DNA from: Roseibacillus sp.
GTDB taxonomy: Bacteria > Verrucomicrobiota > Verrucomicrobiia > Verrucomicrobiales > Akkermansiaceae
NCBI GenBank assembly: GCA_002686085.1
Contig: NZAC01000002.1
Span: forward strand, 185,368 to 232,615
Direction of reading: 5' to 3'
DNA length: 47,248 nt
Of this stretch, positions 35,352 through 46,882 are shown one piece after another. Below the pieces are notes generated by a model, which was not told where the DNA came from, searched no databases, and saw only the letters and a list, made by a program, of their open reading frames with translations. Every line of letters begins with the position of its first letter. Position 1 is the first letter of the stretch. The position numbers and the translations under genes were made by a program.

Positions 35352-35541
35352 TCCTTCAGGGTCGGGCTCAATCCCCGGCAACTCAAGAACGGAGATTAAG
35401 AGCTGGTTCCATGCTGAGATTCTCTGCAAATGCACTTAGGGGCACTTTCTCGCTGGTTGAGAGCGCTTCCTGTCTGACCGCTACACACAAGATTCTGTTA
35501 AAATCCCGGGCGAACCTTGCGAAGCTGTGATTCACTTAGTC

Positions 35542-37059
35542 ATGCATCGACTTTCTTTTGTATATTCGCTCTGCTTCAAGTTCCTCGCCCTTGCCACAAT
35601 CGGCGATTTGTCGGCTCGCGATCACGTCCTGACCATTGGAGGAGGCTATTCTCCGTCTGGTAATCAGATCTCATTGGAGCGGAATGTCATTTTCTTCGAG
35701 AAGCTCCGCGCCGAGAAGTTGGGAGGCGATATCAGGCATGACCTGTATTTTGCGGATGGGAATTCGCCTTTGCCAGATCTCCAGTTCGAGCCGGAAGGTG
35801 GAGAGGTGCCCCGAGCTAATCTTTACATGGCGGGGTTGTTCGGATCAGAGAGGGGCATCGCGAATCATTATCGCAACAACGAGCTGAAGAATACCCGGGA
35901 TCTTTCAAGCCCTGATGCGGTGGAGCGATGGTTTGAGGAGGAAGGGTCAAAGCTTGAGTCCGGGGATCGACTCATCCTTTACGTCACCTCCCATGGGGGC
36001 CGAAGCGGGAACAAGGATAATAAGTTCAACACGAAGATCTGGATGTGGAATCGTCGGACCCTCGAAGCATCCCGCCTTGCTGGTTGGATAGCGAATCTCC
36101 CCGAGGGAGTCAGAGTCATGACTGTGATGGTCCAGTGTTATGCGGGAGGGTTCTCTCATCTCATCTTTGATGAGAACGATGAGAAGAAAGACAGTGTTGA
36201 TCGTCGTGTATGTGGGTTCTTTGCTACGGTCTGTGACCGCGAAGCGGCTGGATGTACCCCAGATGTAAATGAAGCCAACTATGATGAATTCAGCAGTCAC
36301 TTCTGGGCGGCTTTGCGGGGTAAAACCCGCATGGATGAACCGGTGGGTCACTGTGATTATGATGGGAATGGGAAGATCTCATTCGAGGAGGCGCACGCGT
36401 ATGCTATTCTAACTTCCCGCAATATCGATATTCCCATTAAGACGAGCGGAGCGTTCCTGCGGGTCCACAGTCGCCTTCATTCCGAAAAGGAAGAAGAGGA
36501 GGGCCTGCTGGGTCTGGAAACCCCATATTCAGTGATTCTGGAGCGCGCCGGCAAAGTAGACAGAGCGGTTCTGGAAGGGCTCTCCAGGCGTCTCAATCTG
36601 AAAGGGGAAAATCGCGGGACACAGGCGCGAGATGGAGTTTCAGCTTTAGCCAAAAAAATCCGGAAGGTGGAGGAGGAGAAAAAAGCGCATAAAAAGAAGT
36701 TCGATTCGGCGCGGGGAGTGCTTTCGAGAGATCTCCGAAACCGTTGGCCGGATCTCGAGAACAGGTATAGCCCGGGAGCGGTACGCCTCCTCAGTAAAGA
36801 GAAGAGGCAAAGCCAATTCGTGTCAGCGGTTGAGGAGCACCCAAGGTTTGAGGAGTGGTCAAAGTTGAGGGCGGAGCGCTCCAAACTTAGCGATCGCGAC
36901 CTTCAGCTCTCCAAGGAGTATGCCAGTTGGCGGAGGTTCCTGCGGGCGTTTGAAAATGTGGCTTACGCGGCCAATCTTCCCGTCATTTGTGGGGAGGATG
37001 TGGTTGGGACCTATATGTGGATACTCGCGGCGGAGCAGGAGGGGTTTTCTGGTAATTAG
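35542..37059 (+). CDS. Exported caspase-fold (clan CD) protein with EF-hand loop
   Basis: A 505-residue protein with a signal peptide (residues 1-25). DHVLTIGGGYSPSGNQISLE starts the alpha/beta core; RLILYVTSHGG contains the catalytic histidine (H151) and VMVQCYAGGF the cysteine (C199), in the order and spacing of C13/C14 peptidases. Residues 272-283 (DYDGNGKISFEE) are a perfect EF-hand loop, so calcium may control activity. The C-terminal 200 residues are charged and predicted coiled coil (IRKVEEEKKAHKKKF). A GTG at 35527 is also in frame. The gene stands alone between an esterase (divergent) and a SenB-like gene (convergent). Substrate unknown. Confidence 0.8.
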   Translation: MHRLSFVYSLCFKFLALATIGDLSARDHVLTIGGGYSPSGNQISLERNVIFFEKLRAEKLGGDIRHDLYFADGNSPLPDLQFEPEGGEVPRANLYMAGLFGSERGIANHYRNNELKNTRDLSSPDAVERWFEEEGSKLESGDRLILYVTSHGGRSGNKDNKFNTKIWMWNRRTLEASRLAGWIANLPEGVRVMTVMVQCYAGGFSHLIFDENDEKKDSVDRRVCGFFATVCDREAAGCTPDVNEANYDEFSSHFWAALRGKTRMDEPVGHCDYDGNGKISFEEAHAYAILTSRNIDIPIKTSGAFLRVHSRLHSEKEEEEGLLGLETPYSVILERAGKVDRAVLEGLSRRLNLKGENRGTQARDGVSALAKKIRKVEEEKKAHKKKFDSARGVLSRDLRNRWPDLENRYSPGAVRLLSKEKRQSQFVSAVEEHPRFEEWSKLRAERSKLSDRDLQLSKEYASWRRFLRAFENVAYAANLPVICGEDVVGTYMWILAAEQEGFSGN

Positions 37060-37095
37060 GGACAGACACTTCCTTCGATCGCTTTGACAGTGCTG

Positions 37096-37120
37096 CCTGG
37101 CGATTCTCCCTGAGGCCAGG
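37096..37120. terminator. Hairpin between convergent genes
   Basis: CCTGGC (37096-37101) and GCCAGG (37115-37120) form a 6-bp stem with a 13-base loop in the 77-base gap between the convergent caspase-like and SenB-like genes. There is no T-tract, so it could act in termination for either strand, but only weakly. Confidence 0.25.
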
Positions 37121-37136
37121 ACTGGGGTTGAGTTGA

Positions 37137-38117
37137 TCAGACGGAAGCGGAGGGAAACAACTCCTCGAGAATGCTGCTCCAAGTTCCGTTGTGCGAGGCA
37201 CCCCGGTAGTTTCTCAGGTGATTTGTGGCATTTTCGAGGAGCTGACTGCAGAAGTGGGGTTCGGATTCGCCTCGATGGAGGAGGCTGCTGAGTGCTTTCG
37301 TGTCGCCAAAGGGGAAAAGCCCCGGGTAGTCCTCTCCCAGCAGGCTGGTGGAGGCATCGTTACGGGAGGCCACTATCGGGATTTGTGCGGCGGCCGCCTC
37401 GTTCATGGCGCATCCCCCCCCTTCCTGCAAAGAGGTGAGAGCGAAGAGGTTACTGGAAGCGATGAGTCGGAAGGCCTCCTCTGTTTCGAGAGGCCCAAGC
37501 CACTTGTAGCGCGGGTTTTCTGCCTCCTCGCGTTCGACCTCAGCAGCAAATTGTTCCTCCAGGATAGATCCGGCGTGGAGGACACGAATTCTTGAAGTAG
37601 GAGGGAGAAGTCTGGAGGCCCGGGCTGTGCGCATAGGGTCTTTCACGGCTCGAAGGTGGCCGACTACACATACCAAAAAATCGTTTCCACTCTGCTGGTG
37701 GCTTTTCCTCAGGGCAGGATGGTCGGGGGCGGAGAGGGGGATAACACGAGCCTTGATCTGATGATGTTCAGGGAGATGGGCAAGCGCTTTGTCGTGATAA
37801 ACCACGATACGGTCAGCCATCTGGAGTGAGGAAAGAGAGTTTGGTGAGAGGCTGGGGTAGAGATCAGTCCCCGTGAGGGCTACGACCACTGGAGTTTGGC
37901 CGTGGTTATGACACTGTGCCACGGCACGGTGGCTCTTCTCCGCGTTTAGGGCGACCAGGAGATCAACATTTTCGCTCTCCCATTCAGAGGCCATTCGTAC
38001 TTCGTGACCTAGAGCCGAGAGTTCAGCGGCCCAGCGTATCGCACTACTGGTGTTCCCGTTGTTCAGGGAGCCGGGAGACACGATAAGAATGTTCAAGACT
38101 CGCAACTTTAAGGCCAT
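37137..38117 (-). CDS. SenB-like selenosugar synthase family glycosyltransferase
   Basis: A 326-residue GT4-type protein. The N-terminus ILIVSPGSLNNGNTSSAIRW, then LSALGHEVRMASEWESENVD, LLVALNAEKSH, VVALTGTDLYPSL, VCVVGHLRAVKDPMRTARAS, SRIRVLHAGSILEEQFA, NPRYKWLGPLE and the late LLGEDYPGLFPFGDTKALSS correspond closely to the TIGR04348 family as I remember it. SenB in that family joins selenophosphate to a UDP-sugar, making a selenosugar for selenoneine. The partner genes senA and senC are not in the window, so the role here is unproven; an ordinary glycosyltransferase is possible. The ATG at 38117 was chosen over a TTG at 38132 because family members start close to the first strand. Confidence 0.8.
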   Translation of the reverse strand: MALKLRVLNILIVSPGSLNNGNTSSAIRWAAELSALGHEVRMASEWESENVDLLVALNAEKSHRAVAQCHNHGQTPVVVALTGTDLYPSLSPNSLSSLQMADRIVVYHDKALAHLPEHHQIKARVIPLSAPDHPALRKSHQQSGNDFLVCVVGHLRAVKDPMRTARASRLLPPTSRIRVLHAGSILEEQFAAEVEREEAENPRYKWLGPLETEEAFRLIASSNLFALTSLQEGGGCAMNEAAAAQIPIVASRNDASTSLLGEDYPGLFPFGDTKALSSLLHRGESEPHFCSQLLENATNHLRNYRGASHNGTWSSILEELFPSASV

Positions 38118-38318
38118 CCATGGGAGACGCAATCATGGAGGCAAGGTTCCCCGTAATGAGCTTACTCTGCGGCGGCTGTGAGCCCATCGGTAAGAGAGTC
38201 ATGCTGAGGCGCAGGGCAGGCCTGCCAGAGCGTCTCAACCCGTTTCCCATCCAATTGGGGCAGTCATATTCTGAGGCAATATTGACGAGGGATTCAGAAT
38301 TGGTTTTGGTGGTCCATC

Positions 38319-39314
38319 ATGAAATTTGAGTATCTTCGAGTCCTTTTCCTGGGGTTTATTCTGACTACTCCTATCTGCGGGGCGGAAGGGTTGCAGGTGA
38401 CCGAGACAGAGGAGGCCATAACGATAACCCGTGGGGATGTGATGGTTCTGACCTACCACAAGGCAGAGGTACTTCCTCCCGAGAAGGCAGACCCCATTTA
38501 TAAGAGGAGTGGATTTATTCACCCTCTATGCGCTCCGAATGGGGAGCCGGTAACTGGTATTCATCCTGCGGATCATTACCATCATCTCGGGCTCTGGCAT
38601 GCCTGGGTGAAGACCAAGCATGGCAAGGACACTCCAGATTTCTGGAATCTGAGAGGCAGGACGGGGCGGGTTCGGTATGTGAAGACGATCATTCTCCATG
38701 AGGGTTCGGACAAGGACTCCTCGGTTGGATTCGTGGTGGAGCAAGAGCAGGTGGCCTACAAGGGACAGCGCAAGGCGGAGACCGTTGTTCTCAAGGAGCA
38801 GTTTGGGATCCGGGTCGAGTATGTGGATGGGGAGAATCGGGTGAGATATCGTATCAAGCAGACCAACGTGAGCAGCGAGAGCCTGATGCTTCCTGCCTAT
38901 CGCTACGGAGGTGGCCTCGCCTATCGGGCGCCGCACCATTGGGACCGCACCAATAGTGATTATCTCACCTCCGAGGGGCTGGACCGCACCAATAGTCATG
39001 CCACCCGGGCCAGATGGGTGGCAATGTGGGGGCCGACAGCGAAGGGACTTTCCACCTTCACGGTCCTGATACATCCGGAGAATCGGGACTTCCCCCAGCG
39101 TCTGAGAACCTGGCCTCCGAGCAGTCACAACGGAGCGATTTTTTTCAATGTTGTTCCAACGCAGGAAAAGGCATGGGAGATCAGGCCGGGGGAACAGATC
39201 TCAGAATCTTATCTTCTTACCGTAAGTGATGGGAAGCCGGATAAGGGCAAGATCGAGAAGGCGTGGAAGGCTTGGGCGGGTGATGCCCTGAGGACCCTCG
39301 AGTCGCTGAAATAA
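38319..39314 (+). CDS. DUF6807 (PmoA-like) exported protein
   Basis: A 331-residue protein with a signal peptide (ending near PICGAEG). Family text includes YKRSGFIHPLCAPNGEPVTG, DHYHHLGLWHAW (a histidine cluster), WNLRGRTGRVRY, LPAYRYGGGLAYRAPHHW, YLTSEGLDRTNSHATRARWV and HPENRDFPQRLRTWP. Functions are unknown; the family is named after a gene next to methane monooxygenase in some entries but is widespread in PVC polysaccharide-use clusters. It is followed 39 bases later by a sulfatase on the same strand, so a two-gene operon is likely. A short in-frame repeat lies inside the gene. Confidence 0.9.
   Translation: MKFEYLRVLFLGFILTTPICGAEGLQVTETEEAITITRGDVMVLTYHKAEVLPPEKADPIYKRSGFIHPLCAPNGEPVTGIHPADHYHHLGLWHAWVKTKHGKDTPDFWNLRGRTGRVRYVKTIILHEGSDKDSSVGFVVEQEQVAYKGQRKAETVVLKEQFGIRVEYVDGENRVRYRIKQTNVSSESLMLPAYRYGGGLAYRAPHHWDRTNSDYLTSEGLDRTNSHATRARWVAMWGPTAKGLSTFTVLIHPENRDFPQRLRTWPPSSHNGAIFFNVVPTQEKAWEIRPGEQISESYLLTVSDGKPDKGKIEKAWKAWAGDALRTLESLK
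38942..38996 (+). repeat. Two identical 16-base units inside the DUF6807 gene
   Basis: The unit GGACCGCACCAATAGT occurs at 38942-38957 and 38981-38996, exactly 39 bases apart, so the repeat is in frame and gives DRTNS twice. The second copy sits in the conserved region next to TRARW. Confidence 0.8.
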
Positions 39315-43897: not shown

Positions 43898-46882
43898 TTA
43901 TCCTTTCTGCCACTTTCTTGTGGTCAGGAATACAACTACTGCGGCGACTGCGAGTAGAATTGCCCACCGGGTCCGGGAGGCTTCCCTGAATTCCGGCATT
44001 GCCACCAAGGGCTCGATCGGTCCTCGCTGGCAGAGGACGAAGCAACCGTATCGAAGAACAGCCTCCTCGAGAGCGGCATCATCGGTAGTATCGACACTAG
44101 ACAGGTTGCGTCTCTGGGTCTCCCAGACGGCTTGGCCAATACGGTCGGTAGTAAGGGCTAATTGATACATCTCCCTCATGAAGGAGGGGGTGCTTTCGTC
44201 CGAAACGGGCCAGAGACTCAGGAGAATCGCGGAACTCCCCGCCAGAGAAAACCCCCGCCTCAGGCCCAGGACCCCTTCTCCCCGAACCGATTCTCCCATT
44301 CCAGAGTCACATGAGGAGAGAGTTACCAGACGAGTTTCTGCAAGGGGGAGTCTTCTCACCTCATTCGAGAAAAGAATTCCATCCCGGTCGAAGGGGACGG
44401 AGACTCCCTGAGAGCGCTGGAAGTGGGCTCTTTTGGCTTCGGTAAGAACGAGTCCACTCCGGTAGAAGTGATCCGGAGCTTGGTCGTAATCCTGCAACTC
44501 GTTGAGGGTGGTTCGCTCCGAGGAAGGCAAAAGAAAGGCGTGGGTGGCAAGATGTAGAACGGCAGGGCTGCCAGACATGCTGCGGAGGTCCTGCTCGCTG
44601 GAATTAGTGAGTTTTTTGGAAGCTGCATTGGACGGCATGATTTTTTCCAGCATACCCAGCTCTCTCCGTACTCCGGGGATATCCGGAAGCGCATTAATAG
44701 TCTGGAGAATAATTTCACTGAGTTGGTCGGATGAGCGGTCCTTTGTTCTCGCAGGGAACTTCTGCGCTTCAAATTCCGGAACCCCGATCAAAGACCAGGC
44801 TCCCTCCCGGAGTGAGGGGCCTTCGCGTTCAACGAGAAGGTCCCTTGCGCTGGTGTAGTAAACGAGCTGTCGGTATTTTTCCGAGAGCAAGCGACCACTT
44901 TTGTCCATGAGGACTGCAAAGGAGAGGAAGTTGAGCTCGGCGTCAGGGGAGATCGCCACGGTCTGGATTTCGGTCGGCAGGCAGGCAGCAACAGGCGACC
45001 AGAACAGGTCGTGGAGGCGCTGGAGAGCGGAACTTAGGCGTAGAGAAGGTGGAGCGGCTGTGGGCTCCATCCCAAGAAGATGGGTCCGGTAGCGAAGTCG
45101 ACTTTTCATCACATCGAGCCAGGTCGTTAAATCCCTGTTGGTTCCCAGGGAAATCCATTTGGGAGGGCCCTCCGGGAGAATCAGGATCGCTCCGTAGGAG
45201 AGGCTGTCAGGACCGGTTTTGCCCAGGTCATTAAAGCGGACGTAATCAACGAAGGCCGAGCCCGGAGAAAGGCTCACCTGAATATCCTTCCAGCTGACTT
45301 GTGTGCTTTCCTTGGCCGAAAAGGCGGTGTGATTTCTGAGCCGTGTCTCGAGAGAAGTAATCTCATCATGGACAGCCGAAACCCTCTTCTGGTCCTCATT
45401 TCGGAAAAGGAGGTCATCAAGTTCTCTCTGCTTCTCTTCAAAATCCATCCGTAGCCGGGCAAGTTCCGGATTGCTCTCGGATGCCTGCTTTTCTTCCAGA
45501 AGGCTGTCGATGATACGGGCTTTCGTCTTGAGGATGGTATTGGCGATGAGTTCGGGATCCTGCCCCAGCGAACACGGAATCGTAAGAAGATGATTCTCGC
45601 GCAGCCAGTTGAGACGCTGACGCTCCGTCCCGAAGGAGATAATATCATCGAAGAGCTCTAGAGCGTGCGTGGTAAGCTCTTCGGTTTTTTCTGCAAGGGC
45701 GTCAGGTAACGAATTCGAACGGAAAAGGCTCTCCAGATAATTGAGTTCGGCCTCGATATAAGCCTGATGGTGCACGCCAACGGACTCACGGTAAAGATCC
45801 GCTGATCTTCGGTAATGACGCTGTGCTTTGTGGTGATTCCCGAGCTGCTGCTGGGCGAAGCCGAGATTGGTGTGGTAGGGCCCGAGCGAGGGGTGCCGCT
45901 CGCCCAGTAACTCGAGGGAGATTGTCAGTGCTTCCTCGAAGAGGTCCCGGGCTCTGGCCGGTTGGCGATCCTCCAGTTCAAGGGTGCCGAGGTTCGAGAG
46001 GTGCGATGCCAGAGTCAGGTCATTTACTCTGGAGCGGTTCATTTGCCTGGTGAGCAGAGTTGCTTCCTCGAGATAACCGCGGGCGACATCAAAGGACTGG
46101 GCTCCAAGGCGCAGGAGCGAAAGGCCGATCTGACCTGTAAGGCTTACAACGTCGGGGTGTTCTTTCCTCAGGGATCCGCCCGCAAGCGCGTGCTCTCGGG
46201 CGCGCTCCAGATGCTCAGCGGCCTTGGCGTAGCTGCGCATGACGTAGAAGTAACGGCCAAGGCATTCGTGCTGGAACCGGAGAGCATCCCTGTCGTTTCC
46301 AGCCTGGCCCAGAGTTTCATGGAAGATTCGCCCTGCCTCCTCATAGCGACCAGTGGTGAGATAGATCAGTCCCAGATGATTCTGGCTGGCCGAGAGCCAC
46401 GGCTCTCTCTCAGACTCTTCAACTTGTTCGTGCTGCTCGATTGCTCCAAGGAGGGATTGCTGAGCCTCCTGATAGAGCCCGGCTTTTCCCTCGGCCCTTC
46501 CAAGCTCGTCAAGAATACCGGCGAGAGCCTCGGCGCCGAAGTTACCTTCGGTTGCGAGATCACGGGCGAGGCGCAGGTGCTCGAGGGCCGAGTCGAACAG
46601 CTGGAGTCTAGCCTCCACGCTCCCTCTGCCCTGAAGGGAGAGAGCCCAGGTCAGGCGAGCCTCCTTCGTTTCACTCGTGCGGACCTCTTCACGCCATTGT
46701 TGTTCCAGCTCCACCAGTAACGGGAGAGCCTTCTCGAATTTGCCGAGGGCGAGGAGCTCACCCACTTCAAGAGGATCCTCCGCCATCGAGAGCGGGAGCG
46801 AGGACATCAGCCCGGCGAAGATCCAGCCCTGGAGCTTCGTCGGGTGGGCCCTTACGGGTGGACAAGAATCTGGTAGAAGCAT
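43898..46882 (-). CDS. TPR-CHAT protease-like protein with C-terminal membrane anchor
   Basis: A 994-residue protein. Residues about 40-400 are TPR repeats (for example YLTTGRYEEAGRIFHETLGQ and QQQLGNHHKAQRHYRRSADL). About 640-960 is a CHAT domain of the caspase superfamily with the histidine in LHLATHAF (H781) and the cysteine in LSSCDSGMGE (C858), followed by GVLGLRRGF. A single membrane segment at 973-987 followed by a short basic tail (TRKWQKG) makes it look tail-anchored. The N-terminus has a possible signal peptide (IFAGLMSSLPLSMA). The start overlaps the end of the upstream truncated gene by 31 bases. TPR-CHAT proteins are proteases in signalling or defence; here the partner is unknown. 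Confidence 0.9.
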   Translation of the reverse strand: MLLPDSCPPVRAHPTKLQGWIFAGLMSSLPLSMAEDPLEVGELLALGKFEKALPLLVELEQQWREEVRTSETKEARLTWALSLQGRGSVEARLQLFDSALEHLRLARDLATEGNFGAEALAGILDELGRAEGKAGLYQEAQQSLLGAIEQHEQVEESEREPWLSASQNHLGLIYLTTGRYEEAGRIFHETLGQAGNDRDALRFQHECLGRYFYVMRSYAKAAEHLERAREHALAGGSLRKEHPDVVSLTGQIGLSLLRLGAQSFDVARGYLEEATLLTRQMNRSRVNDLTLASHLSNLGTLELEDRQPARARDLFEEALTISLELLGERHPSLGPYHTNLGFAQQQLGNHHKAQRHYRRSADLYRESVGVHHQAYIEAELNYLESLFRSNSLPDALAEKTEELTTHALELFDDIISFGTERQRLNWLRENHLLTIPCSLGQDPELIANTILKTKARIIDSLLEEKQASESNPELARLRMDFEEKQRELDDLLFRNEDQKRVSAVHDEITSLETRLRNHTAFSAKESTQVSWKDIQVSLSPGSAFVDYVRFNDLGKTGPDSLSYGAILILPEGPPKWISLGTNRDLTTWLDVMKSRLRYRTHLLGMEPTAAPPSLRLSSALQRLHDLFWSPVAACLPTEIQTVAISPDAELNFLSFAVLMDKSGRLLSEKYRQLVYYTSARDLLVEREGPSLREGAWSLIGVPEFEAQKFPARTKDRSSDQLSEIILQTINALPDIPGVRRELGMLEKIMPSNAASKKLTNSSEQDLRSMSGSPAVLHLATHAFLLPSSERTTLNELQDYDQAPDHFYRSGLVLTEAKRAHFQRSQGVSVPFDRDGILFSNEVRRLPLAETRLVTLSSCDSGMGESVRGEGVLGLRRGFSLAGSSAILLSLWPVSDESTPSFMREMYQLALTTDRIGQAVWETQRRNLSSVDTTDDAALEEAVLRYGCFVLCQRGPIEPLVAMPEFREASRTRWAILLAVAAVVVFLTTRKWQKG

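Follow-up and report, generated by a model that had tools for sequence, protein, structure and literature searches.

A SenB-type gene without its partner in Roseibacillus: probable retention of a selenosugar synthase after loss of ovsA

The pathway to selenoneine is encoded by senA-senB-senC (Kayrouz et al. 2022, as summarised in PMC9814287). The DNA analysed here, a stretch of 47,248 nucleotides from Roseibacillus sp. (the window), carries a senB-like gene among other neighbours, which raises the question of what a SenB might do without its usual partners. The first-pass annotation had offered three options, namely a split pathway, a selenosugar made for another purpose, or a relative with a changed substrate. 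We consider the second of these to be the best supported. The partner was lost, the protein falls in the SenB clade and SelD is present. The gene probably encodes a working selenosugar synthase that was kept after the loss of the downstream enzyme. The features concerned are:

35527-37059, plus strand: 'caspase-like' gene, convergent with senB, named by motif only
37060-37136, no strand: 77-bp junction, the site of ovsA (about 1.28 kb) in sister species, placed by synteny with the loci L055 and L056
37137-38117, minus strand: senB-like Se-glycosyltransferase gene (GT-B fold), assigned from the open reading frame, TIGR04348, PDB matches, AlphaFold2/Foldseek and the active-site table
38319-39314, plus strand: DUF6807 gene (PF14100, 175.5 bits), divergent from senB

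The reading frame of senB encodes 326 amino acids from an ATG at 38117, or 331 amino acids (37137-38132) from a TTG at 38132. The first-pass annotation had recognised the TIGR04348/SenB pattern over most of the protein, and indeed the profile is matched with 266.9 bits (E 2e-79), from residue 15 to 321 of 331 and over profile positions 1-307 of 310. This score lies under the curated equivalog cut-off of 300, as does that of an OvsA-linked sister SenB (278.7 bits, L055), and by these profile scores we place the protein within the SenB clade without treating it as a certified TIGR04348 equivalog. Only three of the 62 SenB homologues in the family Akkermansiaceae pass this cut-off, so that most of them are probably named just glycosyltransferases in public annotation. 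The second NCBIfam model, NF038229 (GPMC system family 4 glycosyltransferase), matched the protein over its whole length, but with 98 bits versus 267 for TIGR04348 and far below its own cut-off of 400.

The PDB sequence matches were SenB entries only (8k5u, 8jjn, 8jjq, 8fbx; E about 1e-36). The AlphaFold2 prediction, based on 32 relatives (mean pLDDT 91.8, pTM 0.88), was compared with known structures by Foldseek, where the first 15 matches were all SenB (E 4e-26 to 8e-22), followed by BshA (1e-14), and by VIA-align, with Z 33.8-37.7 to SenB structures versus 30.2 to BshA and the best value for SenB with UDP-Glc and phosphate. Both comparisons favour SenB over BshA, and the protein thus stands out from generic family 4 glycosyltransferases. 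SenB of Variovorax paradoxus (8jjn, 8jjq, 8jjt, 8fbx) and RsSenB (8k5u) share the length and the GT-B fold of the window protein, with alignment at Z 37.7 over 309 residues (2.1 A, 31% identity). The window protein differs from both in sequence (~30% identity), in scoring under the TIGR04348 cut-off and in having neither senA nor senC adjoining its gene.

In V. paradoxus SenB, the sugar donor is bound by N20, T23 and E231, with E239 at the ribose, and selenophosphate by N20, H58, R61, T83, T85 and R155; K158 serves in Se-P cleavage, and H58 mutants keep partial activity (PMC10891094). The comparison with a characterised SenB proposed in the first-pass annotation finds the key residues kept: the window protein is identical at N20, T83, T85, D86, R155, K158, E231 and E239, the equivalents of K158 and R155 being K164 and R161 in the numbering of the 331-residue frame. 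Three positions are changed (T23S, H58N, R61K). The donor and ribose set N20, T23, E231, E239 thus reads N, S, E, E, and the selenophosphate pocket, in the order given above, N, N, K, T, T, R, with four of six residues identical. No SenB group compared deviates at K158, R155, E231, E239 or D86, and R155 and K158, like E231/E239, are the same in 135/135 proteins of the groups in the tree set. T23S is conservative and occurs also in OvsA-linked SenB, and T23A is found in 17 of 43 SenA-linked proteins. H58 is retained in all 43 SenA-linked SenB and replaced by N in 3 of 12 OvsA-linked ones, among them that of another genus (G582). The published donor-binding motif EGGAHV reads EGGGCA in the window protein; its H is N in 41 of the 43 SenA-linked SenB, so the published motif is not general. 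Because the nearest relatives have H and T, the H58N and T23S substitutions must have arisen on the branch leading to the clade of the window.

Of the neighbours named in the first-pass annotation, DUF6807, for which we know of no link to selenium, was confirmed, whereas the name 'caspase-like' goes back to short stretches resembling motifs (YVTSHGG, QCYAGG) that were picked out by eye in a protein with no Pfam or NCBIfam match. Both are conserved locus markers in Roseibacillus: the caspase-like gene cluster adjoins senB in 10 of the 13 Roseibacillus genomes that have SenB, and the DUF6807 cluster is common to 12 genus genomes. A CHAT-domain protein with tetratricopeptide repeats (43898-46882), adjoining a YjhG-type xylonate dehydratase locus, likewise belongs to the gene arrangement that is conserved around senB in this genus.

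In six genomes of the same genus (G544, G550, G551, G552, G553, G554) a SenA-like gene lies directly after senB, and in G544 it overlaps senB by a few bases. The order in G544 is DUF6807, senB, ovsA, caspase-like, and that of the window is the same minus ovsA. The sister loci of G544, G552, G553 and G554 are orthologous to that of the window and have the same flanking genes, with 61-62% identity between the window SenB and those of G544 and G553, but they carry beside senB the ovsA that was deleted in the clade of the window. The next branch, G545, also lacks ovsA and has a gap of 66 bp. No ovsA remnant was seen by eye in a six-frame translation of the 77-bp junction. A clean loss of ovsA in the lineage of the window, either one loss before the split of G545 or two losses, would explain this pattern. 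An apparent SenB fusion in G551 (a 1,057-aa frame) was discarded, the extra part being an unlikely upstream frame extension in GC-rich DNA.

The SenA-like protein of the relatives scores about 427-432 bits against the NCBIfam SenA model, near the cut-off of 420. In the PDB comparison, OvsA (8u41, 'selenoxide synthase') gave 470 bits for the protein of G544 and 425 for that of G582, versus 185 and 169 for SenA, and by these scores the partner appears closest to OvsA, not SenA. Among 51 SenA-like proteins adjoining senB, the G551-like ones differ at a set of conserved positions, for example near the C terminus, with RQAYYP versus RNFFTP in the others. EgtD (PF10017) was absent from the OvsA-like genomes tested and present in three genomes with the other type, which would fit an enzyme not needing hercynine. 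The reported substrate of OvsA is histidine, on a route to ovoselenol. Because the partner in the relatives is OvsA-like and EgtD was not found, the gene most likely descends from a senB-ovsA pair, with ovoselenol and not selenoneine as its pathway of origin. The model NF041186 (SenA, selenoneine synthase) gives OvsA-type proteins of the Akkermansiaceae 398-432 bits, five of them above the cut-off (examples are L049 5664-6941, L055 8182-9462 and L047 963-2243), and annotation based on it would label ovoselenol-type enzymes selenoneine synthases.

The genome of the window (G000; 73 contigs, 96.5% completeness, the window in contig 2) was searched by profile or protein query. A selenoprotein SelD (at C20, 368.8 bits), whose gene holds a single in-frame TGA in a CAGU motif, is encoded on a contig other than that of senB, and a SelA (503 bits) elsewhere. 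Since the SelD gene is there, selenophosphate should be available to the window SenB, and by gene content the selenocysteine route is very likely in use. The first-pass annotation was right that SenC does not lie within the window, although a SelD predicted to do its job is encoded on another contig; the genome search that it had suggested for selD succeeded, and a genome devoid of any selenophosphate source, which it had named as evidence against its reading, was not found.

On the tree, the protein lies among SenA/OvsA-linked SenB, not outside the SenB clade as the first-pass annotation had considered. The six species of the window's clade group with 100/100 support and join G545 at 90/88, and both are nested in a 12-member Roseibacillus clade (100/100), the other five members of which are OvsA-linked. 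The stem branch of the six-species clade, next to these OvsA-linked sisters, measures 0.41 changes per site, and given its length some shift may have occurred around the time of ovsA loss. Against the reading of a retained selenosugar synthase stand this branch, which is also compatible with a change of function, the score below 300 bits, and H58N and R61K in the selenophosphate pocket with T23S in the donor set. A change of acceptor after the loss of OvsA, to thiophosphate, phosphate, a small thiol or an alcohol in place of selenophosphate, could account for the long stem and the altered pocket; SenB prefers selenophosphate over thiophosphate by a factor of only 10-20 (PMC10702425), and the predicted fold is a general GT-B one, where BshA and others follow SenB among the structural matches. 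We nevertheless consider it unlikely, since R155, the Se-P-cleaving K158 and E231/E239 are identical in the 135 proteins, H58N also occurs in the OvsA-linked SenB of G582 and H58 mutants are partially active (PMC10891094), and SelD is retained in all better genomes of the clade.

A pathway split over the genome was the first option of the earlier annotation. Ovoselenol or selenoneine would then be made from the selenosugar by a SenA/OvsA that has diverged, or by a different C-Se bond-forming enzyme, encoded in another part of the genome. As that annotation had stated, SenA is not within the window; nor did the SenA profile (NF041186, E 1e-40) match anything in the rest of the genome, which is 96% complete, or in the other five species of the clade. 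A tblastn-type search of G000 with the OvsA of a relative returned as its best match an FGE-type protein with 70.6 bits only; against the SenA profile, the best candidate of this type reached 130 bits, its match being limited to the C-terminal half of that profile. EgtD (PF10017, E 0.001), the other gene for which a genome search had been advised, was absent from G000, while the controls (E. coli, Methanosarcina) and a further three genomes gave matches; the model TIGR03438 matched nowhere, controls included, and being uninformative alone was replaced by PF10017. Other genomes do hold a SenA/OvsA-type gene off-contig or far from senB (G579, G580, G583 and G586 of a related genus, and G527), and G000 encodes FGE-fold proteins, but with the whole clade devoid of a SenA profile match, a best candidate confined to the FGE half and no EgtD, a split pathway is very improbable. 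The genome resembles the selenoneine pathway in having SenB and a selenophosphate source, and differs from it in lacking SenA and EgtD and in using as selenophosphate synthetase a selenoprotein SelD from another contig.

Among the six species, each represented by a separate species genome, dN/dS of senB is 0.12-0.27, compared with 0.34-0.41 among the OvsA-bearing sisters G544, G552 and G553. The gene is under purifying selection after the loss of its partner, no weaker than in the sisters that still have it. That senB is a functionless, decaying relic of a lost senB-ovsA operon is the least probable reading of all, for although the partner is gone and two relatives (G546, G548) have SelD and no detected SenB, the gene is intact in six species under this constraint, and most SenB genomes of the family have no SenA/OvsA and retain the gene all the same. 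In the Roseibacillus genomes G546 and G548 themselves, senB may have been lost or may lie in the missing part.

Under the preferred reading, in which a working selenosugar synthase outlived its partner, SelD, a selenoprotein of the genome itself that also serves selenocysteine synthesis, would turn selenide into selenophosphate, as the presence of its gene suggests. The window SenB, judged by homology and residues, would couple this selenophosphate with a UDP-sugar; the Se-P bond would then be cleaved by the lysine corresponding to K158, giving a 1-seleno-sugar. In the OvsA-bearing sisters OvsA would take the selenium onward, whereas in the clade of the window no known enzyme would do so. The clade ancestor would have lost ovsA cleanly and retained senB under selection, and the selenosugar would either be an end product, serving as a reserve of selenium, a buffer or an antioxidant, or be used as substrate by a still unrecognised enzyme; no partner gene using the selenosugar was found. 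We infer the catalytic activity, the product and its use, and on this footing it is likely that the window SenB makes a selenosugar. To our knowledge, SenB-made selenosugars have been described solely as intermediates toward selenoneine and, by gene context, ovoselenol.

The situation is not confined to this clade. Among 260 genomes of the family, SenB was detected in 62 (E 1e-30), SelD in 74 and both in 54; a SenA/OvsA-type gene was present in 15, all of them within the SenB set, and SenB with SelD but without detected SenA/OvsA in 42. The co-occurrence of SenB and SelD (54/62; Fisher p 3e-30, kinship ignored) is mostly a genus-level signal, genera such as g2 (probably Akkermansia) having neither gene. 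In a GTDB-wide scan, 30 SenB genomes outside the family were checked for SenA and 18 were without a full-length one; 17 of these 18 carry SelD over the selD cut-off, seven as oxidoreductase-SelD fusions, compared with a SelD rate of 28% in the family (binomial 7e-9, kinship ignored). The label 'fusion_not_SelD' for seven SelD frames of 741-806 aa was rejected, as they score below the cut-off of that model and above those of SelD and the oxidoreductase partner. The planctomycete genomes of loci L193-L199 have SenB, no full-length SenA, and a SelD that carries a pyridine nucleotide-disulfide oxidoreductase domain (TIGR03169) as fusion partner.

On the wide SenB tree, in which two GT4 proteins of the same genome served as outgroups on branches too long to root it, the label 'no SenA' needs 19 changes, of which starred branches force 11 or more. 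Partnerless SenB therefore arose many times, a statement to be taken with caution as many genomes are incomplete. It found no mention in the literature searched, which left out Kayrouz et al. 2022 and 2024 (the latter Nat Chem 16:1868, cited in PMC13188914). It is possible, though we put it forward only tentatively, that SenB and SelD form an independent selenium pathway, widespread among Verrucomicrobiota and Planctomycetota, with a selenosugar, or a selenometabolite of an enzyme unrelated to SenA/OvsA, as end product, at which the clade of the window would have arrived recently via OvsA loss. Should the retention of SenB together with SelD, in genomes that lack SenA/OvsA, prove to be regular, either the selenosugar is functional itself or a third selenometabolite awaits discovery. 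The clade of the window is a useful test case, with a recent loss, an intact locus and sister species that still have the pair. Moreover, Roseibacillus persicicus KCTC 12988 is cultured and has SenB and SelD, with SenA/OvsA not found, and the product can therefore be sought directly.

Neighbour clustering revealed no new partner gene common across genera beside partnerless SenB; the neighbours are lineage-specific, g204 having cysS and an APH-type kinase at this place, g202 alaS and g203 others. Two Verrucomicrobiales loci, L117 (1987-6969) and L133 (3285-6981), have a selA, selD cluster with senB adjoining and divergent, and in the genome of L133 there was no SenA match. In L117, the selA frame reads through a TGA and on into the putative substrate-binding protein of a selenate ABC transporter (TIGR04553). 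In g204, a second, diverged SenB group lies in a tight run of cysS, senB and an APH-type kinase (PF01636), with overlapping gene ends in several genomes (L088 258-3768, also L072, L073, L090, L093 and L094); it is speculation that this kinase supplies a sugar phosphate.
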